Origin: Lachnospiraceae bacterium
Lineage (GTDB): Bacteria; Bacillota; Clostridia; Oscillospirales; CAG-272
DNA length: 64,000 nt
Assembly: GCA_024404495.1 (NCBI GenBank)
Contig: JAKSPT010000009.1
Location: 1 to 64,000, forward strand
Direction of reading: 5' to 3'
The position numbers and the translations under genes were made by a program. The notes below the pieces were generated by a model, which made no database searches, was not told the DNA's origin, and worked only from the letters and a program-made list of their open reading frames with translations. Within the stretch, counting starts at the first letter, position 1. Every line of letters begins with the position of its first letter. This document shows, piece after piece, positions 13,371 to 45,876 of the stretch.

Positions 13371-13600
13371 GGGGGATGCGTGTCCTTTCTCTGAGAGAAT
13401 CGGTTCCCGGCTTCGCCGTGGAACCGCGTATCAAAGAGGCATAAGGGGGACATAATGTTTGACTCCTTCGTATATTGCCTCTCTGTATCCGGGAGAGATC
13501 GTCTTCGGTAATCTTCCATCCCGATCCGCCTCCCCCGGTGTCTTCGCATTGCGCGCTGCTGCCCGGACTATATCCGAAGCGCAGTTCGTTTCAAAGCAGC
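13371..13600 (+). repeat. R1 element, copy 1 (3' of the nrdG-like gene)
   Basis: It begins GGGGGATGCGTGTCC and contains AAAGAGGCATAAGGGG, CGGTGTCTTCGCATTGCGCGC and TGCTGCCC-GGACTATATCCG, all shared with copies at 21429, 45075 and 45876 (minus). In this copy the first hairpin is interrupted by an inserted GGTTCC...GGAACC hairpin (about 13401-13430), and the long-range stem is decayed. It lies in sense orientation directly after a stop codon. No coding frame is evident. Confidence 0.8.
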
Positions 13601-13645
13601 AAAAAGGCATTCCCGTGACTGTATCGTCGTGAGAATGCCTTTTTC
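13601..13645 (+). terminator. Terminator at the end of R1 copy 1
   Basis: AAAAAGGCATTC (13601-13612) pairs with GAATGCCTTTTT (13633-13644), a 12-bp stem ending in T's. It closes the nrdG-R1 transcript. Confidence 0.75.
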
Positions 13646-13680
13646 TTTGTTTTCGTCCGTTTCACTTTGGGCGATGTGTA

Positions 13681-13737
13681 GGCTCCCTTGTGTAAAGAGA
13701 GTTCCCGCGCCAGCGGGTGAGGGATTGTACCGCGTTG
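13681..13737 (+). repeat. R4 hairpin repeat, copy a
   Basis: GGCTCCCTTGTGTA-N-hairpin (CCCGC-GCCA-GCGGG)-TGAGGGATTGTACCGCGTTG. The ends GGCTCCCT and GAGGGATT are near-complementary, so the whole folds as one stem. Other copies are at 50341 (minus) and 50495. Confidence 0.65.
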
Positions 13738-13807
13738 CCATCCGATTCTCATCAGACCCCGACGCGCCTTCTTTCAGTCAGCGGACAGAGAAAGAACCGT
13801 TTTTTCC

Positions 13808-13836
13808 TTGACAAATAAGGCAAATAAAGGTATAAT
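13808..13836 (+). promoter_or_regulatory. SigA-type promoter of the large beta-helix gene
   Basis: Perfect TTGACA (13808-13813) and TATAAT (13831-13836), 17 bp apart, 36 bp upstream of the ATG. This is one of the strongest promoters in the window. Confidence 0.88.
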
Positions 13837-13872
13837 ATTTCTATCAATTCAATCCGAAAAAGAGGACAGATA

Positions 13873-16800
13873 ATGAAAAAAACGACCAAGCTTCTTTCCT
13901 TCCTGCTTCTGTTCCTTCTTCTGCTTTCGTTCTGCCTGCCGACCGCGGCGGACGAATTGGACGAGGAATTCATTGAAATGCTCGACGACTGCGAAAAAGT
14001 GTCGTTCCAAAGCTGGGACAAAGGGCGTGCCTTCCGTCGTGACACCTCCGAAAAAACCGAGGGCAAGGCAAGCACGATGCTTACCATCCCGCGCGGCGAC
14101 GGCGCTTTCGTCATCGGCGCGACCTACAGCCCGGTAAACGGCACCGGCGCGAACTACCTCGTTATGGACCTCTACGTTTCCGACCCCGACCTGTGGTATT
14201 CCTCCACCTCCACGACCCTCGAAATGACCTCGAGCGGCAAGTGCGACGTGGAAGAAACCAACTGGGAACTGCTCGCCTTCGACGTCCGCGAGGGTTGGAA
14301 CCATCTTGAACTGCCGATCTCTCCGAACGGCGGATGCCGTCTGAACCACATCAACTACATCCGTATTTTCACTCTTTCGATCGACGTGCAGAAGGGTCTG
14401 ACGATCGGCTTCGACAACATCCATCTTGCCTACATTGATTACGCGGCTTCCCGCCCCGTATTTGACATCGGCGAATACGATCTCGACCGTGCGATCCCCG
14501 CAAAATACACCACGCCCGAAACCGAACCGATCCCCGAGACCGATCCCGTGACCGAGGCGATCACCGACGTTCCCGCCGCCGAAGGAAACGACTCCGGCTT
14601 CCTTTCGACCGTTCTTCTGATCTCGGGCGGCGTCGTTATGCTCCTCTCGCTGATCGGCTTCTTCGTCAGAAAGGATCGCCGCATCGGTCTGATCCTCATC
14701 CTCGCGGGCGCACTCATCTGCGTCGCCGGCTTCGTTCTGATGCTTCTGAATCCCGCCTCCCCCGCCGTTCCCGTTCCCGGAACCGAGGCGACCGAAACCG
14801 AGGGCGAGACCGTTCCCGAAACCGACGCCGAAACCGAACCCCGTGTGATCCCCACCGGTTTCCCGTGGTCGGTCGGCGATCAGACGAAGCATCCCGAGGT
14901 CAGCGCCGAAACCGTTGACGTCGAACTGCTTCTGACGAAGAACAAGTCCTACGACACGAGAGAGGACTACCGCTCCTCCTACAAGAGCGTCGGTCAGGAG
15001 GTCAAGCAGCCCGACGCGAAAACCGGTCTCATCGTCTCGAAATATCCTTCCTCCTCCTACACCGTCGCCGACGCGAACGTCCTCACCTACGGTGCGACGC
15101 CCGACGACCTCTTTGACGACACGAGAGCCATCCGCGAAGCGATCACCGCCGTTTCGAGAGCGGGCGGCGGCACGGTCTTCCTCCCCGCCGGCTACTACTG
15201 CATCTCCGAACCGCTGAATCTGCCTGCCGGCATTGCGCTGATCGGTGAACTGGAAAAGGGCACCGCGAACGGCACCGTCCTCTGCGTTTACTGCGGCAAG
15301 GGCAAGACCGACACGGCGAAATCCGCCGTCCGTATGGAGCACCATACCGGCATCAAGAGCATCGCCTTCTGGTACCCCGAGCAGACGATCGTCAACGGCT
15401 CCGCGATCCCCTATCCCGCCACGATCGTCCAGACCCTCTCCGAGGGCGTCACGGTCGAAAACGTGACCTTCGTCAACTCCTATCAGGGCATCAACTTTGC
15501 CGCGGGCAGCAACAACTCCCTCCAGTACGTCCGCGACGTTTACGGCACCTGCCTTGCGATCGGCTACGAAAACAACATGAGCCTTGACATCGGCAGAGTG
15601 GAAAACGTCCGTTTTGCCGCCGATTACTGGCTGGATTCCGCTCTCCCGGGCACCCCGAATGAAGAGCTTCTCCGCACCTATCTGCTCCGCAACGCGACCG
15701 GTATGCTGCTCGAACGCATCGACTGGACCTTCTACGCCGACGTGACGGTCGAAGGCTACGCGATCGGCGTCCACGGCAAGGGCTCGTCCGACGGCTACGC
15801 GAACGGACATATGTTCAACTTCAACCTCCTCGACTGCTACTACTGCATGAAGGTCGATCAGCTGAGCTGGATGCTCCTGACCAACTGCGTACTCCGCGCG
15901 TCGGGCGGCGAGGGTGCGACCCCCGTCTGGATCAACGAAAACTGCGGCGCTCCGCTCACCTTCAACGGCTGCACGATCGAGTCGAAGGGCAAAAACGCCG
16001 TCGTCAACAACGGCACCGCGCCCCTTTCCTTCACCGACTGCACGATCTCCTCGGTCGGCGGACGCACGGTCGCGAATTACCCCGAAAAAGATATTGCCTT
16101 CGTCAACTGCACGGTTTCCGACGGCAAGGAAGCGATCATCACCGACGAAACGCTGCCGATGCACTTCGATATTCCGGATTACGGCAAAGAGGTCGTCACC
16201 AAGCCCGCCTCCGATAAGTTCGTCATTCTCACGAAAGCACCCTACAACGCAAAGAAGAACGCCGACATCACCGCCGAGCTGAAAAAAGCGATCGAAGACC
16301 TGAAGGCGACCGGCGGCACGATCTACATCCCGGGCGGATACTACTACGTCAACGAGCATATCGACGTGTGGGCGGGCATCGAGATCCGCGGCGCTGCCGA
16401 CTTTGAGTGCAACCTCGACGGCGTCACCCGCATCCAGTCCACCTTCGGCGAAAACGATCCGAACGGTCCCGCGCTCTTCGACCTCTACGACGGTTCCGGT
16501 ATGCGCGGTCTCGCCATCTACTACCCGAATCAGGACAAGGGCACGCTGAAGCCCTATTCCTTCACGATCCGCGGTCACGGCAAGAACGTCTACCTCGTCG
16601 ATATGACCCTTCCCACCTCGTGGAACGGCGTCGACTTCGCCACCTACCGCTGCGACAACCACTACGTTGAGTACATCCACGCCGCGATCATCAACACCGG
16701 CATTCAGGTCGGTGCCGGCTCCGAAAACGGCATCATCCGCGACTGCCAGTTCACCCCGAACACGTGGATACTTCGTTCCAAGCCCTCGAACGGCTGGTGG

Positions 16801-17385
16801 GGCGACGTTTACAACATCCTGATGAAGCAGGGCTGCACCTTCGTCGTCGGCGAATCGAAGAACGAGATCCTCTATCACAACTTCACCTACGGCGCGTACG
16901 AAGGTCTCTCGATCCGCGACGGCGCAAAGGACGTCTTCGTCCTCGCCCACGGCGTTGACGCGGGCAACTATCCCGTCCGCGTTTCGGGCAACTCCACCTC
17001 CCTCCTCGTTGACTGCCAGCTCGTCAACCTCAACGGCACCGACAACCGTTACTTCCTCACCGACGAGGACTTCACCGGATCGGTCACGACGGTCAATCAG
17101 GCAGGCTGGGGCTCCACGAAGGGTGCCTTCATTCTGAAGGGTACCGGCACCGTCACGGTCATCGGCGGTCAGATGCACGCCGCGGGCTCCCCGATGTGTG
17201 AATTCCGCGCGGGCACGGCGAACTTCTTCGGTCTCTTTAACGCCGGCAGAAGCGTCGATTTCAAGATCGGTGAAGACGCGTCCGCCCTGCACATTGCGGG
17301 CAACGTCCTCCGCTCCGGTCTCCGCCTGACCGGCACCGAGAATCCCTGCAGGATCACCGGGGCTGACGCCGAAGCCGAGGAGTAA
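13873..17385 (+). CDS. Membrane-anchored protein with two pectate-lyase-type beta-helix domains
   Basis: 1170 residues. Order: signal peptide (1-26); a beta-rich module (about 30-190) resembling a carbohydrate-binding or jelly-roll domain; an acidic Pro/Thr/Glu linker; two transmembrane helices (243-265 and 271-293) joined by a short basic loop RKDRR; a second ET/PE-rich linker; then two right-handed parallel beta-helices of the pectate lyase superfamily (about 400-765 and 783-1160). Each helix opens with a typical TYGATPDDLFDDTRAIREAI or ITAELKKAIEDLKATGGTIYIPGG segment. The helix hairpin should place both the N-terminal module and the beta-helices outside. No single catalytic motif is clear, so binding or lyase activity on cell-wall polysaccharide is inference. 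Monocistronic with a strong promoter. Confidence 0.8.
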   Translation: MKKTTKLLSFLLLFLLLLSFCLPTAADELDEEFIEMLDDCEKVSFQSWDKGRAFRRDTSEKTEGKASTMLTIPRGDGAFVIGATYSPVNGTGANYLVMDLYVSDPDLWYSSTSTTLEMTSSGKCDVEETNWELLAFDVREGWNHLELPISPNGGCRLNHINYIRIFTLSIDVQKGLTIGFDNIHLAYIDYAASRPVFDIGEYDLDRAIPAKYTTPETEPIPETDPVTEAITDVPAAEGNDSGFLSTVLLISGGVVMLLSLIGFFVRKDRRIGLILILAGALICVAGFVLMLLNPASPAVPVPGTEATETEGETVPETDAETEPRVIPTGFPWSVGDQTKHPEVSAETVDVELLLTKNKSYDTREDYRSSYKSVGQEVKQPDAKTGLIVSKYPSSSYTVADANVLTYGATPDDLFDDTRAIREAITAVSRAGGGTVFLPAGYYCISEPLNLPAGIALIGELEKGTANGTVLCVYCGKGKTDTAKSAVRMEHHTGIKSIAFWYPEQTIVNGSAIPYPATIVQTLSEGVTVENVTFVNSYQGINFAAGSNNSLQYVRDVYGTCLAIGYENNMSLDIGRVENVRFAADYWLDSALPGTPNEELLRTYLLRNATGMLLERIDWTFYADVTVEGYAIGVHGKGSSDGYANGHMFNFNLLDCYYCMKVDQLSWMLLTNCVLRASGGEGATPVWINENCGAPLTFNGCTIESKGKNAVVNNGTAPLSFTDCTISSVGGRTVANYPEKDIAFVNCTVSDGKEAIITDETLPMHFDIPDYGKEVVTKPASDKFVILTKAPYNAKKNADITAELKKAIEDLKATGGTIYIPGGYYYVNEHIDVWAGIEIRGAADFECNLDGVTRIQSTFGENDPNGPALFDLYDGSGMRGLAIYYPNQDKGTLKPYSFTIRGHGKNVYLVDMTLPTSWNGVDFATYRCDNHYVEYIHAAIINTGIQVGAGSENGIIRDCQFTPNTWILRSKPSNGWWGDVYNILMKQGCTFVVGESKNEILYHNFTYGAYEGLSIRDGAKDVFVLAHGVDAGNYPVRVSGNSTSLLVDCQLVNLNGTDNRYFLTDEDFTGSVTTVNQAGWGSTKGAFILKGTGTVTVIGGQMHAAGSPMCEFRAGTANFFGLFNAGRSVDFKIGEDASALHIAGNVLRSGLRLTGTENPCRITGADAEAEE

Positions 17386-17429
17386 ACCCTTCGGGACCGA
17401 AGCTTTCATCCGCAATTTACAAATTCTGC

Positions 17430-17485
17430 TTGCATTTCAGGCGAAATATGGTATAATGATTTCCGGGGCAGAAAAAGCCCCGGAA
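17430..17485 (+). promoter_or_regulatory. Promoter and 5'-terminal hairpin of the SPFH operon
   Basis: TTGCAT (17430) and TATAAT (17452) are 16 bp apart. The predicted transcript begins almost exactly at a perfect 9-bp stem, TTCCGGGGC / GCCCCGGAA (17461-17485), followed by ATCTTTTATT. The hairpin may protect the 5' end or act as an early attenuator. The AAGGAG site lies further on at about 17501. Confidence 0.65.
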
Positions 17486-17513
17486 ATCTTTTATTATGAA
17501 AAGGAGATAAAAT

Positions 17514-18413
17514 ATGAAAAATCAGAAAACCGCGCGCAGAATCTTCCTCGCCCTGATCCTTATCGTTGTCGTTCTCATTCTGCTTTCCACCGTCTTCGCC
17601 ACCGTTCCCACCGGGCACACCGGCGTCGTCACGACGCTCGGCAAGGTCGAAGACTACATATACGACGAAGGGCTGCACTTCAAGCTCCCGTGGCAGAAGG
17701 TCACGAATATGGACAACCGCACCCAGCGTGCCATCGTCACGACCGAAGCCTCCTCCTCCGACATTCAGCAGGTCGACGTCCTCTGCTCGGTCAACTATTC
17801 GGTCGACCGTGAGACCTCGCAGAAGCTTTTCGGCAACGTCGGCGCCTCCTATTACGAGACCGTTATGGAGCCCCGTATCTACAACGATATCAAGACCGTC
17901 TTTGCCAACTATTCCGCCGAGAACCTCATCGCCTGCCGCAGTGAGCTTGCCGACAAGATCGCCGAGCTGCTCATGCCCGAAATGAAAGCGTACGGGATCG
18001 CGGTCAGCAGCGTCTCGATCGAAAACCTTGACTTCTCCGACGCATTCACCGAAGCCGTCGAGGCAAAGCAGGTCGCCGAGCAGGACAAGCTCCGCGCCGC
18101 CACCGTGCAAGCGCAGAAGACCCTCGAAGCCGAAGCGGAAGCAAAGCGTCAGGTCATCGCCGCCGAAGCGGACGCGGAGATCACCCGCATCCAGGCGGAG
18201 GTCGCACAGTTCGCGGGCGAAAAGGAAGCCGCCAAGAACCAGAAGCTCTCCGAGAATATGAACGAGCTGCTGATTGCTTACAACTTCATCGAAAAGTGGA
18301 ACGGCAAGCTGCCCACGATCTATTCCGGCAGCTCCGAAGGAATGCTCCCGATCCTCAACATCAATCCCTCCGATCTGCCCGAGCTTTCCGAAGAAATGAA
18401 CGACGCGGAATAA
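17514..18413 (+). CDS. SPFH/prohibitin-family membrane protein
   Basis: 299 residues. One N-terminal transmembrane helix (about 10-32) is followed by VPTGHTGVVTTLGKVEDYIYDEGLHFKLPW, the classic prohibitin/HflC opening, then an SPFH domain to about residue 180. A long Ala/Glu/Lys/Gln coiled coil (185-250) and a C-terminal tail complete it. SPFH proteins form ring-shaped membrane scaffolds. Here the gene starts an operon with two MutS-like ATPases (gap 31 bp), which is not a pairing I know from characterised systems. An AAGGAGATAAAAT ribosome-binding site precedes ATG. Confidence 0.85.
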   Translation: MKNQKTARRIFLALILIVVVLILLSTVFATVPTGHTGVVTTLGKVEDYIYDEGLHFKLPWQKVTNMDNRTQRAIVTTEASSSDIQQVDVLCSVNYSVDRETSQKLFGNVGASYYETVMEPRIYNDIKTVFANYSAENLIACRSELADKIAELLMPEMKAYGIAVSSVSIENLDFSDAFTEAVEAKQVAEQDKLRAATVQAQKTLEAEAEAKRQVIAAEADAEITRIQAEVAQFAGEKEAAKNQKLSENMNELLIAYNFIEKWNGKLPTIYSGSSEGMLPILNINPSDLPELSEEMNDAE

Positions 18414-18444
18414 GCCGCGACAAGCCGAAAGGACCATTTTACCT

Positions 18445-19938
18445 ATGAGCCGACCCGACTTTCCTTCCCTTCTCTATCGGGACCAGCCGACCGGAAAACC
18501 CATTGCGCTTTCGGTCTTTGAAGACCTTCAGCTCACGCAGCTCATCCGGAGCGACATCCTCGAAGCGGTCCTCGTCCCCTGCGGCAGAGAGAACATTCCC
18601 CTGCGGCAGGAGCTTTTCCGCGCTGCGGAGAAGGAGGAATTTCTCTCCCACCTTGACGCGCTCGACACCGCGCTGCTGAAGACCGAAGACCTTTACCGCG
18701 CCTTTTCCGAGGCGCAGTCGGAAGAGGAGACCGCCGTCATCGGCACCTTTCTGCTCTCCTCCGCGATCGGTTTCATGCGTCTCGCGGCGAAGGACGTCAC
18801 GTATTCCGGCGACAAGGCGAAGGAAGGTGGGGAAGGCTTTCTTTACTGCCGCTTCCGCGACTTTTTCCGTGCCGAACTGGAAAAAGAAGCGTGGAAGAAA
18901 GCGGAAGAGGAGCTCTCTTCCCTGCTCCCGCTCCTGAATGAGATCGACACCTACTCCTTCCGCGTTCACGGCAAGGAGATCTCCTTCCGCGTCGGAGGCG
19001 GGGAAAGCTATCTCGACCGTCTCCGCTCCTGCGCCGCCGATCTTGCGCTTGATCCGCCGGACGAGCCCCTTTTCCTCCCCCGTCAGCTTTCCCCCGTCAT
19101 TCTTGACGCCTTCGGAAAAGCGCACCCGGAGGAATTCGGAAAATTCCGCGCGTTTTACGAAAAAAACCGCACGCTCTTCCCGGAGGAGCTTCTTTCCTAC
19201 CGTCTCCCGATCGGATTTCTCCTTGCCTTCACCCACCTCTTTGAAAAGGTCCGTGCGCACGGCATCCCGCTCACCTATCCCGCTCTGACCGACGAGCGCA
19301 CGATCCGCATCACCGAGGCCTACGACATCTCGCTGTTTGCGAAAAACGAATACGATATCGTTCCGAACGACGTCGTTTTCACCGGAGACGAGCCCTTCTT
19401 CTATCTGACCGGCGCGAACGGCGGCGGCAAGACCACCTACCTCCGCACGGTCGGCATCGCGCTCACACTGCTCCTTCTCGGCTGCCCGCTTCCCTGCGCT
19501 TCGGCAGTCGTCTGCGTCCCGAGCGGTATTTTTACCCATTTCCCGCGCGACGAACGGTTCGAGGGAACCGGGCGCTTCGTGGAGGAAAACCGCCGTGTCG
19601 AAAAGATCCTTGCCGAAATGGATTCCGATTCCGTCGTTCTTCTGAACGAGACCTATTCGACGACGAACGAGGAAAACGCGGTCGAAATGACCGAAAAGCT
19701 TGCGGATCTGCTCTGGGACAAAAAGATTTTCGGTCTTTATATCACCCATCAGCATTCGCTGAAGGAGAGCGCGATCCCCTACCTGAACGTCCTCATCGAC
19801 GAAAACGATTCCAACCGCCGTACCTTCAAGATCGCGCGGCAGCGTTCCACCGGCGGCTCCTTTGCCGTTGACGTGCTGAAACGCTACGCGCTGACGAAGG
19901 AAGCGCTGGAAGAACGATTCGGAAGCGGGGTGCTGTAA
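18445..19938 (+). CDS. MutS-related ATPase, first of a pair
   Basis: 497 residues. The C-terminal half is a MutS-type ABC ATPase: Walker A GANGGGKTTYLR (323-331), GRFVEENRRVEKIL in place of the MutS STFM signature region, Walker B VVLLNETYSTTNEEN with Asn401-Glu402 instead of Asp-Glu, the switch His in YITHQH (435), and a C-terminal GGSFAVDVLKRYALT matching the GIxVAxLAGxP helix. The N-terminal half is helical like the MutS lever/core. Mismatch-binding domain I, with its Phe-x-Glu, is missing, so mismatch repair is unlikely. KamB/KamC-type aminomutase reactivases are MutS-like pairs too, but no aminomutase is nearby. Its stop overlaps the next ATG (TAATG). Confidence 0.75.
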   Translation: MSRPDFPSLLYRDQPTGKPIALSVFEDLQLTQLIRSDILEAVLVPCGRENIPLRQELFRAAEKEEFLSHLDALDTALLKTEDLYRAFSEAQSEEETAVIGTFLLSSAIGFMRLAAKDVTYSGDKAKEGGEGFLYCRFRDFFRAELEKEAWKKAEEELSSLLPLLNEIDTYSFRVHGKEISFRVGGGESYLDRLRSCAADLALDPPDEPLFLPRQLSPVILDAFGKAHPEEFGKFRAFYEKNRTLFPEELLSYRLPIGFLLAFTHLFEKVRAHGIPLTYPALTDERTIRITEAYDISLFAKNEYDIVPNDVVFTGDEPFFYLTGANGGGKTTYLRTVGIALTLLLLGCPLPCASAVVCVPSGIFTHFPRDERFEGTGRFVEENRRVEKILAEMDSDSVVLLNETYSTTNEENAVEMTEKLADLLWDKKIFGLYITHQHSLKESAIPYLNVLIDENDSNRRTFKIARQRSTGGSFAVDVLKRYALTKEALEERFGSGVL

Positions 19939-21413
19939 TGAAAAAATTCAGTCTTCTGAAGAAAACCGACGAAACGCCCCTCTTCTGCGACGTCGTCTAC
20001 GACCTCTCGATCGACCGTGCGATGGCGAACCTCTGCCCCGATCAGAAGCGGCGGGAATACTTCCTCGATACGATCGCCCATCCGCTGACGAAGCGCGAAA
20101 ACATCATTTACCGGCAGGAGATCTTCCGTGACTTCGTCACGCAGCCGACGCTGTTCACCGACCTGCGTCTGCTCTTCACCCGCTACGACAAGATCAAAAG
20201 CGACTGGCAGGAAATGAAGCTGTCCGGCTCGCACGGCGGCTCCTCCTCGGTCAATCCGGAAGCGATGCTCGACCACACTTACGCGAGCCTCAAGGTCACG
20301 GCGATCTTCCCGAACACCATCGTCTCCTTCTTCCGTTCGCTCTACGACACGCTGAAGAAGTACCCGCTTGAGGCGGAAGGTCTGATCGCCATCCGCGACT
20401 ACTGCGAAGAGCGCATCGGGAACAATTCCCTGAACGAGATCGTCCGCATCGCGCAGCTTTTCCGCTACAAGTCGCCCGAAGCCTTCTCCTTCGGCGTCGT
20501 GACGAAGATCGGCGAAACGATGCGCGTCGCCTCCGCCGAGCTTTTCGACATCGAAGAATATCAGGAAAAGAAGCCGAACGTTCTGACCAAGCTCTTTGCC
20601 AAAAAGCCGAAGGGACCGACGGAATATCCCGTCGAGCCCGACGACAACTCCTACGAGGATTCGGTCGCGCTGCTCAACGAGGCGCTGACCGGCATTGATT
20701 CTGCGCTCACGCAGATCACGAACGGGGTCTACGAGATCTTCTTCGGTCTCTCCCGCGAAATGTTCTTCTACGAAGCGGCGCTCCTTTACTACGACAAGAT
20801 GACCGGGAGCAGGGTTCCCCTCTGCGTTCCCGAGATTCTCGAAGCGGAAGAGGATATCGTCGTCATCGACCGTCTCCGTGACCTGCTCCTCGCCTCGGGC
20901 GAGACCCCGGTCGAAAAGATCGTCCCCAACGACGTCGATATCAACGGCACGGCGGGCATTCTTGTCAAGGGTCTTACCGATACCGGTAAAACCGTCTACC
21001 TGCGTTCCTGCGCTGCCGCGCAGCTCTTCGGGCAGGCGGGACTTCCCGTTCTCGCCGACCGCGCCCGCCTTTCGATCCGCACCGCCTATTTCTCCCATTT
21101 CTCCTCCGCCGAGGAGGAATTTATGGTCGGGGACGCGGCAGGACGCTTCGATCAGGAGGCAAAAGAGATCGCTAAAATCATGGACCGCCTCACCCCTCAC
21201 GCCATGGTCTTCCTCAACGAGACCTTCCAGACGACCTCCTACCGCGAGGGTACCGACGCCATCTTCCACGTTCTCTCCGTTCTTCCCAATCTCAACGTCA
21301 AATTCCTTTTCGTCACGCACCTCACCGCCCTCTTCAAAAAGATGGACAAAACCAAAGTCTGCCTGATGGAGACCGACGACACCGGTAAATACAAGCTGAA
21401 ACGGATCGTTTAA
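19938..21413 (+). CDS. MutS-related ATPase, second of a pair
   Basis: 491 residues and paralogous to the gene before it. Walker A is GLTDTGKTVYLR (345-352). GRFDQEAKEIAKIM replaces the STFM region, and Walker B is MVFLNETFQTTSYREG with Asn427-Glu428. The switch His lies in FVTHLTALF. It has no mismatch-recognition domain. The C-terminal helix of the partner (GGSFAVDV) is missing: the protein ends KYKLKRIV, so the two are not interchangeable and probably form a heterodimer. Start and stop overlap with the upstream gene implies equimolar synthesis. An R1 element follows in the same orientation 15 bp after the stop. Confidence 0.75.
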   Translation: MKKFSLLKKTDETPLFCDVVYDLSIDRAMANLCPDQKRREYFLDTIAHPLTKRENIIYRQEIFRDFVTQPTLFTDLRLLFTRYDKIKSDWQEMKLSGSHGGSSSVNPEAMLDHTYASLKVTAIFPNTIVSFFRSLYDTLKKYPLEAEGLIAIRDYCEERIGNNSLNEIVRIAQLFRYKSPEAFSFGVVTKIGETMRVASAELFDIEEYQEKKPNVLTKLFAKKPKGPTEYPVEPDDNSYEDSVALLNEALTGIDSALTQITNGVYEIFFGLSREMFFYEAALLYYDKMTGSRVPLCVPEILEAEEDIVVIDRLRDLLLASGETPVEKIVPNDVDINGTAGILVKGLTDTGKTVYLRSCAAAQLFGQAGLPVLADRARLSIRTAYFSHFSSAEEEFMVGDAAGRFDQEAKEIAKIMDRLTPHAMVFLNETFQTTSYREGTDAIFHVLSVLPNLNVKFLFVTHLTALFKKMDKTKVCLMETDDTGKYKLKRIV

Positions 21414-21428
21414 GAGACGGAGATACGA

Positions 21429-21464
21429 GGGACGCGGGGGACGCGGGGGACGCGGGGGACGCGA
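21429..21464 (+). repeat. 9-bp tandem repeat (GGGACGCGG x4)
   Basis: Four consecutive 9-bp units at 21429-21464; the last ends in A instead of G. The unit equals the 5' edge of the R1 element (GGGGACGCG), so R1 copy 2 appears to have amplified its own left end. Confidence 0.8.
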
Positions 21465-21640
21465 TGTTCTTTCTCTGAGAGAAAGAACCAAAGAGGCATA
21501 AGGGGTACATAATGTTTGGGTACTCCGAATACAGCTTCTTTGTTCCCGGGAGAAATCATCTTCGGTGATCTCCCGTCCCGATCCGCCTCCTTCGGTGTCT
21601 TCGCATTGCGCGCTGCTGCCCAAACTATATCCGAAGCGCC
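21456..21640 (+). repeat. R1 element, copy 2 (3' of the MutS-like pair)
   Basis: The first hairpin is GTTCTTTCTC-TGA-GAGAAAGAAC (21466-21488), then CAAAGAGGCATAAGGGG. Long-range arms GTTTGGG (21514-21520) and CCCAAAC (21619-21625) enclose a GGGAGA...TCTCCC hairpin and CTTCGCATTGCGCGC. In copy 3 the hairpin reads GTCC/GGAC and the arms CTGGGT/ACCCAG, so both stems show compensatory change. It is not coding. Confidence 0.85.
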
Positions 21641-21671
21641 GCGCCCTCATCAAGTCAGTTCATAAGTAACT

Positions 21672-21892
21672 GAAAAAAGGGGGTGTTGCACTAATGTGCA
21701 ACACCCCCGGCAAATACGGCTCGGCGGCTGAACGCCGCCGTTTTGGCATATTTGCAACATAAAAAATGGCGTTATTCGAGCCAAAAACGCCGTATATTGC
21801 GCAAAACAGCGGAATCCTGACCGCTGTTTTGCCGATGCGAAGCATGTGGGCTGTTGATCGCTTCCGCTTTGCGGAAGCAGATGCAACAGCCC
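21672..21892 (-). ncRNA. Candidate structured RNA with its own terminator
   Basis: Read on the minus strand, the element opens with a long hairpin, GGGCTGTTG...CAACAGCCC with an inner GCTTCCGC/GCGGAAGC. A perfect 12-bp hairpin GCAAAACAGCGG/CCGCTGTTTTGC follows, then GGCGTT/AACGCC and CGGCGGC/GCCGCCG stems. It ends with a 13-bp stem, GGGGGTGTTGCAC/GTGCAACACCCCC (21679-21708), and T6. That last hairpin has a U tract only on the minus strand, so transcription is most likely in that direction. No minus-strand gene upstream explains it. The family and function are unknown; a repeat element with an embedded terminator is the alternative. Confidence 0.5.
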
Positions 21893-22088
21893 CTTTCTGT
21901 CATATTTATTCTTTCTCGTCCGCGTTTCTTTGAAAATACTTATCCCCCGCCGCTCCTCTTTCCCGTCCGAGTTCGTCCGGAGAACTATCATACGTCGAAT
22001 AATGCGCTTCCCTTGCCCTCTGCGCCTCCCATAGAATGATTGTCTTTCTTCCGCGGCTCATTTTCTTCACGGAAAAATAAATAACTTC
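21893..22088. other. Spacer with no recognised feature
   Basis: About 200 bp between the structured element and the kinase promoter. I see only weak AT-rich tracts and no gene, terminator or repeat. Confidence 0.4.
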
Positions 22089-22117
22089 TTGAAATATCTT
22101 CCAAGCGATGATATAAT
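22089..22117 (+). promoter_or_regulatory. SigA-type promoter of the FGGY kinase
   Basis: TTGAAA (22089-22094) and TATAAT (22112-22117), 17 bp apart, 26 bp before the ATG. Confidence 0.8.
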
Positions 22118-22143
22118 AATGAAAAAACACGCGGAGGTTTCTT

Positions 22144-23721: not shown

Positions 23722-23754
23722 TCTGCTCTTCCGTTCTTAACGCTTCAAAAAACA

Positions 23755-23971
23755 AAAAAAGATCGCGCCTCATCCGTATGGCACCGGAAGAGGCGCGCGA
23801 GTTGTGGATTCAAGCGATAACCCTTTGGGGCAGAGATCCTGAACGTCCACAGAAAAACGTTCGAGGAACCAAAAGGCTATGTTTGCTCCCACCGATATAA
23901 TCTGATTTGCGGTCCTGACCGTACCCGGTCAGTTTCTATTCGGGACGTTCCGTTTTCGGGGTGTCCCGATT
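23755..23971 (-). ncRNA. Candidate structured RNA downstream of the anti-sigma gene
   Basis: On the minus strand this spacer contains hairpins CGGGAC...GTCCCG and CTGACC...GGTCAG. Next comes a long rod (23804-23892) in which GTGG pairs with CCAC, ATAGCC with GGTTAT, CCTTTTGG with CCAAAGG and CGAACGT with ACGTTC, broken by asymmetric bubbles. A GCGCCTC/GAGGCGC hairpin with a T7 run (23796-23754) ends it. The shape recalls 6S RNA, a rod with a central bubble, but I cannot match its consensus. The last hairpin also serves as terminator for the sigma/anti-sigma operon. Confidence 0.4.
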
Positions 23972-23973
23972 CT

Positions 23974-25223: not shown

Positions 25224-25240
25224 CCGGCTCTACACATAAA

Positions 25241-35096: not shown

Positions 35097-35151
35097 AACG
35101 AATGATACGTCCCCGGAAACGGAAAAACCGCTTTTCCGGAAAGGAACACAA

Positions 35152-37377: not shown

Positions 37378-37380
37378 ATT

Positions 37381-37429
37381 AAGTCTAAAGTCTAAAGTCT
37401 AAAGTCTTAAGGCTTAAGGCTTAAGACTT
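37381..37429. repeat. Heptamer array R5b between mutL and tgt
   Basis: Seven units in exact register: AAGTCTA x3, AAGTCTT, AAGGCTT x2, AAGACTT. It begins 3 bp after the mutL stop and ends just before the AAAGAAAGG site of tgt. Confidence 0.85.
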
Positions 37430-37448
37430 AAAAAAGAAAGGATACATC

Positions 37449-38588: not shown

Positions 38589-38703
38589 AAACAGGATTTT
38601 TCCGAATTTTTGAAAAAACATCATACAGTCTTCACATACTTCTTTTATAATGGAACCGTAAAAGCCGATCCTTTTCTTTGAAGATCCGAAAGGAGAACAA
38701 TTC

Positions 38704-40230: not shown

Positions 40231-40257
40231 TCAACGCTCCCGAAAGAGGTATTTTGC

Positions 40258-40968
40258 ATGGGCTATTCCGTTCTCGTGACCGACGACGAGGAAAACATCC
40301 GGAAGCTGATCCGGAAATACGCGGAATTTGAGGGACACACCGTTACCGAGGCGGCGACCGGAATGGAAGCCGTCTCCCTCGCCCGCGCGGGCGGCTTCGA
40401 CGTCATCATCCTCGACGTCATGCTCCCCGAGCTCGACGGCTTTTCCGCCTGCCGTGAGATCCGCAAGACCTCCGACACCCCGATCATCATGCTGTCGGCA
40501 CGCGGCGAGGAATACGACCGTCTGAGCGGCTTCGGCTTCGGCGCTGACGATTACGTCGTCAAGCCCTTTTCGCCGAAGGAACTGATGTCCCGCATCGACG
40601 CGATCATGCGCCGGGTCGGCAGACGCGCCGATCCCGCTGCCGCGCCCGCACCGGCAGTCCTTCCCGCTCACGACGAATATGTTTCCGGCGGGCTCCGGGT
40701 GGACTTCACCGGGCGGCTGGTCTGGATCGACGGCGTCCGCGCGGACCTTTCCCCCAAGGAATACGAGCTGCTCTTTTATCTCGTCAAGAACCGCAACATT
40801 GCCCTCACCCGGGAAAAGCTGATCACCGAGGTATGGGGCTACGATTTCTTCGGGGACGACCGCACGCTCGACACCCACGTCAAGCTGCTGCGCCGCTCCC
40901 TCGGCAAATACAGCGCCCATATCGTGACGCTTCGCGGAGTGGGGTACCGTTTTGAATCCGATCACTGA
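40258..40968 (+). CDS. OmpR/PhoB-family response regulator
   Basis: 236 residues. Receiver domain with acidic pocket DDEE, phosphoacceptor Asp53 (VIILDVMLPELDGF) and Lys in DDYVVKPFSPKEL. An Ala/Pro-rich linker (about 118-138) follows, then a winged-helix domain (LSPKEYELLFYLVKNRN, TLDTHVKLLRRSLG, TLRGVGYRF). Its 3' end overlaps the kinase gene by 17 bp, so the two are translationally coupled. The targets are unknown; htrA directly upstream is the obvious candidate, suggesting an envelope-stress role. Confidence 0.92.
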   Translation: MGYSVLVTDDEENIRKLIRKYAEFEGHTVTEAATGMEAVSLARAGGFDVIILDVMLPELDGFSACREIRKTSDTPIIMLSARGEEYDRLSGFGFGADDYVVKPFSPKELMSRIDAIMRRVGRRADPAAAPAPAVLPAHDEYVSGGLRVDFTGRLVWIDGVRADLSPKEYELLFYLVKNRNIALTREKLITEVWGYDFFGDDRTLDTHVKLLRRSLGKYSAHIVTLRGVGYRFESDH

Positions 40969-42475
40969 ACCTAAAAAACAGAAAAAGGCGAAAAGGAGCC
41001 ACGTTTCCCTCCGGTGGAAGCTCCTTTTCGCCTTCGGGCTTTACGCGGCGATCATCCTGACCGTGCTGTGGCTCTGTCAGGTCGTCTTCCTTGACGCCAT
41101 TTACAAGGGCATCAAGGAGGCGGAGATCAAATCCGCCGCGCGGGAGCTCACCACGGTCACCGACCGCGAAGCGCTTTCGGCGCGCGCCGGGACGGTCTGC
41201 GAGGACAAGCAGATCTGCCTCCGCGTCTTTGAGATGCGCGAGGGCGGGCAGACCGCGGCACAGATTGCCGATATCGACCTCGGGCAGCGGTGCGTCATCC
41301 ACCATATGTCGAAGGACGGCATCTTTCAGCTCTACGACTACGCCTCGAAGAACGGCGGCACGCTGCTGCAGCGCTACCGCTACAACCTCGACAAGCGGGT
41401 CTATTACGAGGTCCACGGCGGTCCGCTCGACCGCTCGCAGGACGAGGAAAGCATCGTGCTGACCGTCATTTCGGGCGACCGGCTCTTCCTCTTCAACTCG
41501 GTGACCTCGCCCGTCGCCTCCACCGTCCGCACGATCAATCTGCTTCTGATCGCGATCTCGGTCCTCCTGATCGTTCTTGCCGTCATCCTCACCCTCATCC
41601 TTTCCCGCCGCATCGCAAAGCCGCTTGAAGGGATGAACGAGAGCGCCAAGCGGCTCGCGGGCGGGGACTACGGGACCGATTTCTCGGGCGCGGGCTGCCG
41701 CGAGCTTTCCGAGCTCGGCGACTCGCTGAACCACGCCGCCTCCGAGCTTTCCAAAACCGATTCCCTCCGCCGCGATCTGATCGCCAACGTCTCGCACGAC
41801 CTCCGCACGCCTCTGACGCTGATTTCGGGCTACGCCGAAATGATGCGCGACATCCCGGGCGAAAACACGCCGGAAAACGATCAGATCATCATCGACGAGA
41901 CCGCGCGTCTCACCGCCCTCGTCAACGATATGCTCGACCTCTCCAAGCTGCAGTCGGGCACGCAGACCCTCTCCTTCACGGTCTGCAATCTGACCGCGCT
42001 TCTCTCCTCCGCGCTCGGACGCTACAACAAGCTGATCGAGGGCAGAGAGTGCCGCGTTATCTTTGAACCCGAATTCGACGCGATGGTCTCGACCGACGTC
42101 ACCCGCTTTCAGCAGGTCTTCTTCAACCTCATCAACAACGCCCTCACCCACACCGGGGAGGACCGCACGGTCATCGTCACGCAGGATCTCATTCCCGATC
42201 CCGTCACCCTCGCGCCCGCCCGCGTCCGCATTTCGGTCACCGACAGCGGCGAGGGCATTCCCGAGGACAAGCTCGATCTGATCTGGGACCGCTACTACAA
42301 GGTCGACAAGCTCCACAAGCGCGGCGCGATCGGCACCGGACTCGGTCTTTCGATCGTCAAAACGACGATGGAACAGCTCGGCGGCACCTACGGCGTTTTC
42401 AGCCGGGTCGGCGAAGGAAGCACCTTCTTCGTTGAGCTTCCCCTCTGCCCTCCGCCCGAGCCCGATTCTTTCTGA
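40952..42475 (+). CDS. Sensor histidine kinase
   Basis: 507 residues. A basic N-terminus, TM1 (about 27-50), an extracytoplasmic sensor domain (about 51-180) and TM2 (about 188-212) lead into a HAMP domain. HisKA holds the phosphoacceptor His282 (LIANVSHDLRTPLTLISGYAEMM). The HATPase has the N box (NLINNALTHTG), G1 (DSGEGIPEDKL) and G2 (GTGLGLSIV). The start is TTG at 40952 with GGGG 7 bp upstream, inside the 3' end of the response regulator gene. No ligand can be predicted. Confidence 0.92.
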   Translation: MNPITEPKKQKKAKRSHVSLRWKLLFAFGLYAAIILTVLWLCQVVFLDAIYKGIKEAEIKSAARELTTVTDREALSARAGTVCEDKQICLRVFEMREGGQTAAQIADIDLGQRCVIHHMSKDGIFQLYDYASKNGGTLLQRYRYNLDKRVYYEVHGGPLDRSQDEESIVLTVISGDRLFLFNSVTSPVASTVRTINLLLIAISVLLIVLAVILTLILSRRIAKPLEGMNESAKRLAGGDYGTDFSGAGCRELSELGDSLNHAASELSKTDSLRRDLIANVSHDLRTPLTLISGYAEMMRDIPGENTPENDQIIIDETARLTALVNDMLDLSKLQSGTQTLSFTVCNLTALLSSALGRYNKLIEGRECRVIFEPEFDAMVSTDVTRFQQVFFNLINNALTHTGEDRTVIVTQDLIPDPVTLAPARVRISVTDSGEGIPEDKLDLIWDRYYKVDKLHKRGAIGTGLGLSIVKTTMEQLGGTYGVFSRVGEGSTFFVELPLCPPPEPDSF

Positions 42476-42505
42476 TGAAAAATCCTCTTTCAAAAAGGTC
42501 TCTTT

Positions 42506-43219
42506 ATGAAACGTAAGTCATCCTCCTCCCCCTTCCTTTCGGGCATCCGTGACGGCATTCCGATCGCGCTCGGGTATTTTGCCGTCTCCTTTACCCTCGG
42601 CATCGCCGCGCGGAAGGCGGGTCTGAACGCGCCTCTCGCCGGGCTGATGTCTGCGGCGATGGTCGCTTCCGCCGGGGAATTCGCGGCGCTCGGCGTCATC
42701 GAGGCGTCCGCACCCTATCTGGAGATGATCCTCACCTCCCTCGTCATCAACCTCCGCTATCTGCTCCTCTCCTGCTCGCTTTCGCAGAAGTTCGGACCGG
42801 AAACGAGGTTTTTCCACCGCTTTTTCGTCGGGTTTTTCGTCACCGACGAGATCGCGGGGATCTCCTTTGCCCGGGAAGGGCACCTCGAACCCGCATACGT
42901 CTACGGCGCGGGTACGATCTCGGTCCCCGCGTGGGTCGCGGGCACGGTGCTCGGCGTCCTCGTCGGCGCGATCCTGCCCCCCTTTCTCTCCTCCGCGCTC
43001 GGCGTCGCCCTCTACGGGATGTTCCTCGCGATCATCATTCCCCCGGCGAGAAAGGAAAAGTTCCTTGCCGTCCTCGTCGCGGTCTCTATGCTCTGCAGCT
43101 TCGCCTTTGCCTATATCCCCGGCATCCGCACGCTTTCCTCCGGAATGCGCATCATTCTGATCACCGTCCTGCTTTCCGCGTTGGCGGCTGTCGTCAAACC
43201 GAGAACGGAGGAAGCCTGA
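42506..43219 (+). CDS. azlC: AzlC-family branched-chain amino acid exporter subunit
   Basis: 237 residues with about five to seven membrane helices. GIRDGIPIALGYFAVSFTLGIAARKAGL and SAAMVASAGEFAALGVI are the AzlC signature. With AzlD it forms an LIV-E-type exporter of branched-chain amino acids or analogues. Ribosome-binding site AAAGG. It is followed after 1 bp by azlD, which confirms the pair, and stands 30 bp after the kinase. Confidence 0.9.
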   Translation: MKRKSSSSPFLSGIRDGIPIALGYFAVSFTLGIAARKAGLNAPLAGLMSAAMVASAGEFAALGVIEASAPYLEMILTSLVINLRYLLLSCSLSQKFGPETRFFHRFFVGFFVTDEIAGISFAREGHLEPAYVYGAGTISVPAWVAGTVLGVLVGAILPPFLSSALGVALYGMFLAIIIPPARKEKFLAVLVAVSMLCSFAFAYIPGIRTLSSGMRIILITVLLSALAAVVKPRTEEA

Positions 43220-43220
43220 T

Positions 43221-43529
43221 ATGGAAAAAAGCGTTTATCTCTATCTGCTCCTCGCGGCAGGCGTCATCTATCTCATCCGTATGCTTCCCCTGACCCTGAT
43301 CCGAAGAGAGATCAAAAGCACCTTCTTCCGTTCCTTCCTCTTCTATGTCCCCTACGTCACCCTCGCCGCGATGACCTTCCCCGCGATCCTTTCCGCCACC
43401 TCCTCCCCGATCTCGGGTGCGGCGGCGCTGGTCGTCGGGCTTCTGATCGCCTTTTTCGACGGAAATCTCTTCCGCTGCGCGGTCGGCTGCTGCGGCGCGG
43501 TCTTCCTCGTTGAACTATTTATCCGGTAA
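43221..43529 (+). CDS. azlD: AzlD-family transporter subunit
   Basis: 102 residues with three or four membrane helices. VYLYLLLAAGVIYLIRMLPLTLIRREI and FLFYVPYVTLAAMTFPAIL match the AzlD domain, including the R-M-L-P motif. It is the small partner of AzlC. GGAGG in the azlC 3' end serves as ribosome-binding site; the genes are almost contiguous. Confidence 0.9.
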   Translation: MEKSVYLYLLLAAGVIYLIRMLPLTLIRREIKSTFFRSFLFYVPYVTLAAMTFPAILSATSSPISGAAALVVGLLIAFFDGNLFRCAVGCCGAVFLVELFIR

Positions 43530-43544
43530 AAAGGAGCGATACTT

Positions 43545-44381
43545 ATGTTTCAGACCGAAATCCGCATCAACGATTCCGCCGTCCTCAAAGCCTTCATTCC
43601 GAAGGACGATTTCGACGGCAGACCCCACGGTTCCCCCCGCCCCGCCCTGCTCGTCATTCCGGGCGGCGGCTACGCGATGGTCTCCGACCGCGAGGACGAG
43701 CCCGTGATGCTCCCCTTCCTCGCACACGGTTACTGCGTTTTCTCCCTCCGTTATTCGGTCGGCAAAGCTTCCCTCTTTCCCCGCCCGCTGATCGAAGCGG
43801 CGAAAGCGATGTTTATCATCCGCTCCCACGCTTCCGAATGGAACCTCGATCCCGCCCGCGTTTTTGCCCTCGGTTTTTCCGCCGGAGGCCATCTGACCGC
43901 CTCCCTCGGCACCTTCTGGGATCTTCCCGAGGTGGTCGAAGGCGCCGGCATCCCGCGCGGCTCCGACCGTCCGACCGGCATTGTTCTCTGCTATCCCGTC
44001 ATCTCCTCGGGCGACTGCGGTCACAAAGGCTCTTTCTATAACATTCTCGGCACCACGACCCCCGACGCCGAAGCTCTTGACCGCTGGTCGATCGAAAAGC
44101 ACGTCACCGAAAAGAACGCCCCCGCGTTCTTCTTCCATTCCTCGGACGACAGCGGCGTTCCGGTCGAAAACACCCTCCTCGCCGCCGCCGCCTACGCGGC
44201 GCATCATATTCCCTTTGAGATCCATATTTATCCGTCCGCTCCGCACGGCTCCTCCCTCTGCAGCAAGCTGACCGCCTGCGGCGTTCCCGGGTTCATCAAC
44301 GACCGCATGGCGCGTTGGGTCGAGGACGCTTATTCGTGGATGGAGACCGTTCCCTCCCTTACGGATCTCCCCGAACTCTGA
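43545..44381 (+). CDS. Alpha/beta-hydrolase esterase (acetylxylan/feruloyl esterase-like)
   Basis: 278 residues. The oxyanion region LLVIPGGGYAMVSDREDE, nucleophile elbow GFSAGGHLTASLG, acid FFHSSDDSGVPVENTL and His in IYPSAPHGSSL give a complete Ser-Asp-His triad. This arrangement is typical of the BD-FAE/XynB-like esterases that remove acetyl or feruloyl groups from hemicellulose fragments. There is no signal peptide, so it acts on imported oligosaccharides. AAAGGAG precedes ATG. A second esterase, of the SGNH type, follows 37 bp later, which supports a deacetylation role. Confidence 0.82.
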   Translation: MFQTEIRINDSAVLKAFIPKDDFDGRPHGSPRPALLVIPGGGYAMVSDREDEPVMLPFLAHGYCVFSLRYSVGKASLFPRPLIEAAKAMFIIRSHASEWNLDPARVFALGFSAGGHLTASLGTFWDLPEVVEGAGIPRGSDRPTGIVLCYPVISSGDCGHKGSFYNILGTTTPDAEALDRWSIEKHVTEKNAPAFFFHSSDDSGVPVENTLLAAAAYAAHHIPFEIHIYPSAPHGSSLCSKLTACGVPGFINDRMARWVEDAYSWMETVPSLTDLPEL

Positions 44382-44418
44382 TTTTCCCCTCAAAAATACA
44401 GAAAAGAGGTAACGTATT

Positions 44419-45072
44419 ATGATCCTTTCCAAGCACGATCGCATCGTTTTCGCCGGTGACTCGGTCACCGATATGGGCTCCGTCAATCCCGTCGGCGAGG
44501 GCTTCATGGAGGAACTCGGCAGAAGCTACGTTCACGTCGTTGACGCCCTTCTCTCTGCCGTCTATCCCGATCTCTACATTCAGGTCACCAACTCCGGCGT
44601 CAGCGGCAACAACTCCCGCGATCTTCTCAATCGCTTCGACCGCGACGTCCTCAACCTCAATCCCGACTGGATCTCCATCTGCATCGGTATCAACGACGTC
44701 TGGCGTCAGTTCGACTGCCCCTCTATCCCCCACCGCCACGTTTCTCTCGAAGAGTACGAGCGCAATATGGAATCCATGATCTCCCGCGCCGTCGAAAAGG
44801 CAAAAGGCGTCTTCGTCATGACTCCCTACTATATGGAGCCCAATCCCGCCGACACCATGCGCGCCCGTATGGAGGAATACTGCGACGTCTGCCGCCGCCT
44901 CGCCAAGAAGTACGGCGCTACCCTCATCGACCTCCAGAAAATCTTCGCCGATTACTGCACCGTCCGCCACTCCACCTACGTCGCGTGGGACCGCGTTCAC
45001 CCGAACCAGACCGGCGCTACCCTCATCGCTCTCGCCTTCCTCAAAGAAATCGGCTTCGAGATCGGGTTTTAA
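44419..45072 (+). CDS. SGNH/GDSL-family hydrolase
   Basis: 217 residues. All four SGNH blocks are present: FAGDSVTDMG (Ser), NSGVSGNNSRD (Gly), ICIGINDVW (Asn), and AWDRVHPNQTGATLIA (Asp and His). Proteins of this length and type are often carbohydrate acetylesterases. There is no signal peptide. It is the last gene of the htrA-to-esterase run. An R1 repeat begins within a few bases of the stop in the same orientation. Confidence 0.85.
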   Translation: MILSKHDRIVFAGDSVTDMGSVNPVGEGFMEELGRSYVHVVDALLSAVYPDLYIQVTNSGVSGNNSRDLLNRFDRDVLNLNPDWISICIGINDVWRQFDCPSIPHRHVSLEEYERNMESMISRAVEKAKGVFVMTPYYMEPNPADTMRARMEEYCDVCRRLAKKYGATLIDLQKIFADYCTVRHSTYVAWDRVHPNQTGATLIALAFLKEIGFEIGF

Positions 45073-45074
45073 TA

Positions 45075-45306
45075 GGGATACGATGTCCTTTCTCTGAGAG
45101 AAAGGACCAAAGAGGCATAAGGGGTAATTCATAACTGGGTTCCTTCGTATGAAGCGCAGCTGTGAGCGCATTTTACAGCGGCGTCGCTCCGAGGCGATCG
45201 GATAATTCTCGGTGTCTTCGCATTGCGCGCTGCTACCCAGTGGTTCGCATAGCGTCGTGTTCGCCTATCGTGCAAAATATGGAAAGTAACCAACGATAAG
45301 AAAGAT
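45075..45306 (+). repeat. R1 element, copy 3 (3' of the SGNH gene)
   Basis: Hairpin 1 is GTCCTTTCTC-TGA-GAGAAAGGAC (45085-45107), then CAAAGAGGCATAAGGGG. The long-range arms are CTGGGT (45135-45140) and ACCCAG (45235-45240). The interior has GCGCAGCTGTGAGCGC and CTTCGCATTGCGCGC. Homology with copy 4 continues through GTGTTCGCCTA-CGTGCA to a terminator. Confidence 0.85.
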
Positions 45307-45338
45307 ATCCCCGTGATCGAAAGATTGCGGGGATTTTT
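45307..45338 (+). terminator. Terminator closing R1 copy 3
   Basis: ATCCCCG (45307-45313) pairs with CGGGGAT (45328-45334), followed by TTTTT. The same hairpin is present but decayed in copy 4, so the terminator belongs to the repeat. Confidence 0.78.
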
Positions 45339-45375
45339 CTATGTGTAAAAACTGCGCGAGGAATCAAACTGCGTT

Positions 45376-45570
45376 CGTAGGGCGGGGCCTTGTGTCCCGC
45401 CACGACAGGGGTACGATTGTGCAAGTAATACACTTTGCTCGTCACCGGTCAAATGATACTGCTTTCCCTGAAAAAGCGTTTTCGTTTCGCATTTTGAATC
45501 GTGACGCGCCTCGCGCGCTACTCCGCCTCTTGTCAACCTGTCGCGGCGGGACGCAAGGCCCCGCCCTACG
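45376..45570. mobile_element. MITE-like element R3b with 34-bp terminal inverted repeats
   Basis: The ends CGTAGGGCGGGGCCTTG(T/C)... run inward to ...CGACAGG (45376-45409) and are mirrored at 45537-45570, with two mismatches. The length is 195 bp. It is related to 10387-10567 by its ends and right interior. It lies inside the repeat-rich junction between two convergent genes, flanked by inverted R1 copies. Confidence 0.65.
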
Positions 45571-45616
45571 GGTGCGGCGGCACTTTTCGCGTTGCTTTTC
45601 GTATATAACAACAGCC

Positions 45617-45876
45617 TCGCAACTTTTGGTCACGGGGAGAACAAGCCTATCCTTTTTATTCTATCTTATCCTTTTCTGCACGTTAGGCGAACACTGTGCA
45701 GGGCGAACCGCGTCCTAGTAGCACGCAATGCGGAGAAACCGGGAATTACCCGGTCGGTTCGGGGCGTCGTCGCTGTAAAATGCGCTCACAGCTGCGCCCC
45801 ATACGAAGGAACCCAATTATTCTGTCCTCCTTATGCCTCTTTGGTCCTTTCTCTCAGAGAAAGGACACGCATCCCC
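45617..45876 (-). repeat. R1 element, copy 4 (overlaps the yjjG stop)
   Basis: On the minus strand it begins GGGGATGCGTGTCC. Hairpin 1 has the same GTCC/GGAC stem as copy 3, and its TGA loop (45856-45854) is the stop codon of the yjjG-like gene. AAAGAGGCATAAGG follows, then a GCGCAGCTGTGAGCGC hairpin, CCGCATTGCGTGCT and GTGTTCGCCTAACGTGCA. The long-range stem is decayed (TTGGGT opposite CTAGGA). Confidence 0.82.

Follow-up and report, generated by a model that had tools for sequence, protein, structure and literature searches.

A dispersed, structured repeat abutting stop codons in a CAG-272 genome, a candidate portable 3' end of genes

The window, that is, the whole stretch of DNA analysed here (64,000 nucleotides; positions 1 to 64,000 of contig JAKSPT010000009.1, assembly GCA_024404495.1, from a Lachnospiraceae bacterium assigned to CAG-272 of the Oscillospirales), contains four genes that are each followed by a copy of a structured repeat, here called R1, reading in the direction of the preceding gene. 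A preliminary description based on the letters of the window had proposed these copies, and reading the window sequence confirmed all four at their positions and on their strands. R1 recurs throughout the host genome (G000; 2.70 Mb, 94% complete), where most copies touch or contain the stop codon of the gene before them. The relatives compared belong to other genera of the family, the host being the sole genome of its own genus in the set.

R1 is about 190-290 bases long. It begins with a tract of 9-nucleotide (nt)-like units, GGGGAYGCG, of which 41 of 42 copies have 1-7 and one has none; then come a hairpin (GTNCTTTCTC-loop-GAGAAAGNAC, hereafter hairpin 1), the sequence CAAAGAGGCATAAGGGG, a variable body of two or more main types, among them A and B, a 3' block CTTCGCATTGCGCGCTGCTRC and, often, a terminator-like hairpin with a T tail. 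Some copies, including the first of the window, carry a second hairpin inserted inside hairpin 1, and in some of these its outer pairs are broken. The tract, which the preliminary description had not noticed, is the 5' end of R1 and touches the stop codon. By eye, no tandem runs of GGGRYGCG-like units were found outside R1 in the fetched host DNA except in one mutated R1 copy, and lone units elsewhere look like coding sequence. The 17-mer CAAAGAGGCATAAGGGG is present in 10 genome contigs and in one viral contig, where it sits in unrelated sequence. A protein-coding 3' block (frames ending LLxxLYPKxRALIxSVxK*) was considered and dropped by eye, since indels separate the A from the B bodies and no conserved upstream frame was seen.

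Copies of R1 in the window and the genome

The copies in the window and the genes before them are as follows; the strict script is the terminator search described further below.

13364..13650, + strand: R1 copy 1, A-type with an extra inserted hairpin, preceded by the stop TGA (13361-13363) of the NrdG2-like gene
Parts of copy 1, + strand: tract to 13381; hairpin region 13382-13431; CAAAGAGGCATAAGGGG at 13432; CTTCGCATTGCGCGC at 13542
13606..13645, + strand: terminator-like hairpin of copy 1, GGCATTCCCG...TGAGAATGCC with a T run, seen by eye, strict script not passed
21414..21679, + strand: R1 copy 2, A-type, its common part stopping at the start of a nested insert
Parts of copy 2, + strand: degenerate and perfect 9-nt units 21414-21465; hairpin 21466-21488; CAAAGAGGC from 21489; CTTCGCATTGCGCGC at 21599
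45073..45339, + strand: R1 copy 3, B-type, after the stop TAA (45070-45072); tract 45073-45084; hairpin 45085-45107
About 45307-45339, + strand: terminator-like hairpin of copy 3 with a T run, seen by eye, strict script not passed
45605..45876, - strand: R1 copy 4, B-type; tract 45867-45876; hairpin 45844-45866; 3' end approximate
12671..13363, + strand: gene upstream of copy 1, NrdG2-like (TIGR02495)
19938..21413, + strand: gene upstream of copy 2, MutS domain V protein
44419..45072, + strand: gene upstream of copy 3, GDSL/SGNH hydrolase
45854..46543, - strand: gene upstream of copy 4, YjjG-like phosphatase, its last six codons and stop within R1

Family-model matches agree with the gene identities given earlier, namely an NrdG2-like radical SAM protein, a MutS domain V protein, a GDSL/SGNH hydrolase and a YjjG-like HAD phosphatase. 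Searching the host genome at DNA level with copy 1 as query gave at least 47 matches, 40 of 67 candidates having been scored. A covariance-model search of the genome, which had been proposed as a check on the four copies, took R1 far beyond them: the model, built from 31 core sequences that contain the CAAAGAGGCATAAGGGG motif (at most 3 mismatches) and the 3' block, returned 47 rows in the host at E<=1e-3, of which two pairs are split copies, leaving about 45 places. Other searches added two hairpin-only places, on C69 and C1, and the true number may be higher because contigs end at or close to several copies (C10, C24, C51, C60, C69). The closest pairs, which include the copies after groEL and an ABC transporter gene, are 94-97% identical across the core.

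Several arrangements were observed around individual copies. Window copies 3 and 4 form a convergent pair, and at L017 2025-2490 (G000:C2) two convergent genes have a sense R1 each, the two copies sharing one terminator-like hairpin. At the position expected for the terminator of copy 2 lies a palindrome-rich insert of about 210 bp (21680-21893; GGGGGTGTTGCAC...GTGCAACACCCCC ... GCAACAGCCCC), and a similar block, in either orientation, occupies the matching place in three other R1 copies (L018, L020, L028). Another dispersed family, a palindromic repeat AGGCTCCCTTG...GAGGGATTGTAC, lies near R1 at 13680-13732 of the window and also in L013, L015 and L012. Serial repeat units consisting of TTCTTTCTCGTCCGCGTTTCTTTGGG and variable hairpins GTAGGGCGGGG...CCCGCC are located 3' of several copies (e.g. 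L027, L023, L011), and several loci, e.g. L009 and L030, contain intergenic runs of CTTAAGACTTAAGGC-type short repeats.

Contact with stop codons

Placement was surveyed for 42 hairpin-bearing copies, with open reading frames (ORFs) scored by a codon usage trained on the window and the gaps between stop and tract read by eye. The upstream gene reads into R1 in 38 of the 42, as it does in all four window copies, so that the matched orientation described for the window extends to the genome. First-pass gene calls on 41 copies had put 37 in sense and 4 in antisense, but L026 among the latter was miscalled, as its upstream ORF is an ABC transporter in sense to R1; L023-2207, sense in that first pass, has a weak ORF and is excluded from the final 38. 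An in-frame stop (TAA, TGA or TAG) is followed by the tract at 0-7 nt in 32 of 42 copies, the first units after the stop being degenerate in window copies 1 and 2. In five more, the ORF continues into R1 and stops inside it, at a TGA in the hairpin loop for the YjjG-like and PyrF genes, and at a TAA after CAAAGAGGCA for the FolD gene, the SpoIID-like gene and one unnamed gene; in the SpoIID-like protein the tract is translated as repeated RDA. Stop contact or a stop within R1 is thus found in 37 of 42 copies, and the five exceptions are L023-2207, L102 (stop 135 nt off), and L009-2109, L015 and L025, which have no sense gene upstream. Three further copies, missed by the regular expression and outside these counts, also follow a TAA by eye. 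The distance of 0-15 bp from a stop codon reported for the window holds for copies 1-3, but copy 4 has no stop before it: the YjjG-like ORF ends at the TGA at 45854-45856, within the R1 hairpin, with an R1-encoded tail GCVSFL.

As a baseline for random placement, the intergenic DNA of the window was used (46 gene calls, one weak call excluded). Among its position-strand pairs, 48.8% are sense and 2.1% lie at 0-7 nt from a sense stop; about 4% of sense intergenic positions lie that close. Random intergenic placement would therefore give stop contact with p=0.021, and 37 of 42 is far outside chance. The presence of R1 at about 45 genomic places is likewise far beyond chance.

The proteins encoded upstream reach, or nearly reach, the ends of their family models: ValS 859/860, Ddl 301/305, TypA 592/594, GroEL 541/543, PyrF 230/233, FolD 279/285, YjjG 219/223 and SpoIID 337/338. 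Judged from such alignments, the genes before R1 end naturally where tested. Two tandem paralogues on C28 (L016 4529-6007 and 6428-7906), which have no match in NCBIfam or Pfam, share 99.6% identity along 1507 bp that begin shortly ahead of the start codon and reach to about the stop codon, and differ in their 5' flanks. Beyond this part, a TAA with a B-type R1 follows in one, and a TGA with a different R1 variant in the other. In L097, a more distant paralogue, no R1 comes after the stop. These sequences fit a picture in which the gain or replacement of R1 at the stop would be independent of the gene.

Strict stop contact belongs, as far as this goes, to the host lineage and not to the whole class. 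A BLAST search found a match in one of 58 relatives besides the host, and the covariance model gave matches in 8 of 295 family genomes including the host, the seven others at 23-31 bits; the match in G691 looks spurious. The pattern CTTTCTN{2,10}AGAAAGNNNCAAAGA occurs in 28 of 295 family genomes including the host, and in 15 of 71 genera (control counts 0), the highest hairpin-CAAAGA counts being those of G645 (39), G000 (36), G672 (25) and G023 (10). A related pattern ending in CAAAGAA was found in 3 of 291 genomes drawn from the class, where the host had no match, its own copies having CAAAGAG instead, and a stricter pattern was found in the host alone among 398 genomes drawn from the phylum. 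Searches of viral contigs (with a narrower pattern), plasmids and phages gave no match to the R1 pattern. The copies closest to R1, with tract-like units, are in G560 and G515. By longest open frame they directly follow a stop (TAG and TGA), but since the codon score conflicts with this (unclear for G560, antisense for G515), stop contact is not established there. In G645, the hairpin-CAAAGA element also forms tandem series that repeat about every 230 bp (L111, L089, L092, L094, L096).

Fold, triplex-type motif and terminator-like ends

Hairpin 1 had been described as covarying. Among 35 matches in the host genome, a count that excludes copies with the extra inserted hairpin, the outer pairs are of four compensated types (GTT/AAC in 21, GTC/GAC in 10, GTA/TAC in 3 and CCT/AGG in 1), which bears out the claim in general, but in window copy 1 the pairs are broken (GTCC against GTAT). 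In 48 matches from other genera, 132 of 144 outer three pairs are formed, against a shuffled mean of 85, and 38 of the 48 are fully complementary. For 25 A-type copies, 91.5% of 1698 cells are paired in the RNAalifold structure, versus 43-54% when one side is slid by 1-3 columns, a comparison in which the fold has the advantage of being derived from those same sequences. Cells changed on both sides number 19 versus 8.3 in shuffles, and the covariation score is 0.127 versus 0.107; neither value was reached in any of 500 shuffles. The hairpin 1 pairs and the A-type fold thus support the selection on a folded form that had been suggested earlier. The long-range stem GTTTGGG/CCCAAAC, in contrast, is not general: scored as the best 6-nt window with G-U allowed, in A-type copies alone, it reaches 6/6 pairs in 5 of 25 and was rejected as a general helix for that type. 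Pairing of the 5' tract with CGCATTGCG appeared in RNAalifold on all 31 sequences and was lost in the fold of the 25 A-type copies. No Rfam family matched in the window at gathering score, and around copy 1 only three matches appeared at E up to 10, all below that score, in line with the earlier statement that no named family is known for R1.

The hairpin arm GAGAAAG is mirrored by the AAAGAG that follows it, as in the layout of a class II (purine-motif) intrastrand triplex, whose order is pyrimidine arm, purine arm and third purine strand (Holder et al. 2015, PMC4666352). By its sequence, hairpin 1 with CAAAGAG fits this class, a kind of motif already described in bacteria. An exact 6-nt rule (a pyrimidine arm of at least 6, a loop, the purine arm complementary to it, a short loop and then a purine third strand in mirror order) matched 31 of 42 R1 copies, and on both strands of 229 kb of host DNA it yielded 33 motifs, namely those 31 and two in R1-like sequences (L098, L103). 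At the sole free position, the third strand is consistent with the stem in 32 of 35 own matches and 80 of 82 elsewhere, numbers that count as few independent events because the states follow lineage; the L103 copy (CCC/GGG with GGG) agrees, and two T-A own copies and L098 disagree. The outer hairpin pairs would open or strain in a triplex, and therefore selection may act on the hairpin, on the triplex or on the two in alternation.

A strict script for a terminator-like hairpin with a T tail matched 25 of the 35 copies in which the 3' block is present and the sequence is long enough. The terminators noted earlier in window copies 1 and 3 are visible by eye, but neither passes this script; copy 4 also fails, and copy 2 passes solely through a hairpin of the nested insert.

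Possible origin and known systems

We read R1 as a non-autonomous, dispersed, structured REP/PIT-like element that serves as a portable 3' end (3' untranslated region, UTR, plus terminator), and put the probability of this at roughly 60%. Both earlier ideas, a 3'-UTR or terminator module and a dispersed element at gene ends, fit it, with sense orientation in 38 of 42 copies. The reading draws on what the sequences contain: dispersal, orientation, stop contact, a covarying fold, a triplex-type motif and terminator-like hairpins in many copies. Transcription, termination, stabilisation and triplex formation are steps that it would imply. Transcribed from the preceding gene, R1 would give the mRNA a folded 3' UTR that starts at the stop codon and usually finishes in an intrinsic terminator; it would probably halt transcription and shield the 3' end, with a possible action on the terminating ribosome as well. 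In DNA, an intrastrand purine triplex may form at its head and stall polymerases, a possible explanation of why the 9-nt unit ahead of it is repeated in a slippage-like manner.

Several points weigh against this interpretation. The strict forward terminator match is absent from 10 of 35 copies, in at least two of the 25 (window copy 2, L020) the matching hairpin belongs to a nested insert, and matches of the same type occur on the reverse strand in 17 of 35. The 3' block was missed by its motif in 7 of 42 copies, and therefore the 5' module is the most constant part of R1; two of the seven (L034 and L099) are cut by contig ends, and the other five (L016-4506, L030, L097, L100, L102) align weakly to the model, at 34-90 bits. 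The exact triplex motif is absent from 11 of 42 copies. Pairs with double changes in the A-type fold show no excess over shuffles (188/500), and only 7 of 16 distinct outer-stem types in other genera are fully complementary. The NrdG2 protein of copy 1 extends 38 residues beyond its model, and gene conversion of the coding part alone would equally yield the C28 pattern. A rough classing of 68 other-genus copies gave 25 sense (16 of them within 30 nt of a stop), 14 antisense and 29 unclear. The junction with stop codons is left unaccounted for by this reading.

That junction also bears on the alternatives. An ordinary REP/MITE-like repeat could have inserted at random, with selection purging all copies not at harmless gene ends; the mixed orientation of R1 relatives in other genera and the three own copies without a sense gene upstream speak for it, as do REPs, which lie mainly downstream of genes, with a share of E. 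coli REPs no more than 15 nt from a stop (PMC12306157, PMC3733652). Random survivors would be expected at scattered 3' distances, yet 32 of 42 copies have a gap of 0-7 nt, versus about 4% of sense intergenic positions, and we regard this explanation as somewhat unlikely, though worth keeping in view. Selection alone would lead to scattered distances, and target choice by DNA sequence is blind to reading frame. R1 might instead represent a mobile class with insertion machinery directed to stop codons, for example by the terminating ribosome or mRNA 3' ends, without a known transposase or reverse transcriptase, spreading complete gene endings; this is a speculative and rather unlikely proposal. 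A link of insertion with translation or mRNA ends would be new: if copies arise at stop codons, DNA placement would be set by where translation ends, and we know of no bacterial transposon that places itself in this way.

For known movers, an RNA-mediated insertion (by a group II intron-like, a retron-like or another reverse-transcribing route), with the tract as a target-joining tail, would suit the sharp tract-side junction, the variable far side and the tandem simple units at the junction, but it is improbable given that no RVT_1 reverse transcriptase matched in the 94% complete G000 or in G645, G672 or G478 (one did in G023) and that the window holds no Rfam family. A REP mobilised by a RAYT/IS200-type Y1 transposase would likewise be hairpin-headed, dispersed and at gene ends, and Y1 matches occur in three of four other module-rich genomes (G645 1, G672 1, G023 2, G478 none), yet also in 7 of 10 relatives without module copies; as PF01797 has no match in the 94% complete G000 (other transposase families were not searched) and the aligned R1 hairpin has no GTAG or CGTC tags, this origin is very improbable. 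Integron attC sites lie at the stop codons of cassettes in one orientation and have core sites RYYYAAC/GTTRRRY, and an attC-like recombination site would share with R1 a strand-specific hairpin, sense orientation and a stop at or within the element. No integron integrase exceeded the cut-off in any of five genomes searched, G000 included, sub-threshold matches being present in all 14 control genomes as well, and upstream genes such as groEL, valS, typA, pyrF and folD are not cassette-like, so that we give this possibility hardly any weight.

Even under the ordinary reading, one repeat family can supply whole 3' UTRs, and about 45 places with a common 3' end constitute a natural set for testing the action of UTRs and of the triplex motif. 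A literature search limited to openly licensed papers returned no paper on R1 or its motifs. Among known repeats, those of the bcr1 type in Bacillus cereus are, by description, larger structured dispersed repeats of a Firmicute, as R1 is; to our knowledge stop contact is not a feature of theirs, which sets them apart. REP/BIME sequences (GTAG and CGTC families) resemble R1 as dispersed palindromic repeats mainly downstream of genes, some REPs lying within 15 nt of stops, but they are described (PMC3733652, PMC12306157) as 20-40 bp tagged units often in inverted pairs, whereas R1 is 190-290 bp, unidirectional and in contact with the stop. The hairpin flanks of R1 in the 31 aligned copies are, by eye, GCGAT/GCGGT/GCGT and CAAAGA, and do not match the GTAG/CGTC tags. 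BoxC/PIT and TM_ECO elements share with R1 the class II order and, like it, are dispersed, intergenic and uneven among close relatives, and they have been linked to instability (PMC4666352). In that description, their motif is the G/C-rich CCCTCNCCC, TM_ECO is reported without strand bias and PIT elements without terminator activity, whereas R1 has a stem CTTTCTC/GAGAAAG with CAAAGAG, is oriented and abuts stop codons, and has a long body that often ends in a terminator-like hairpin.

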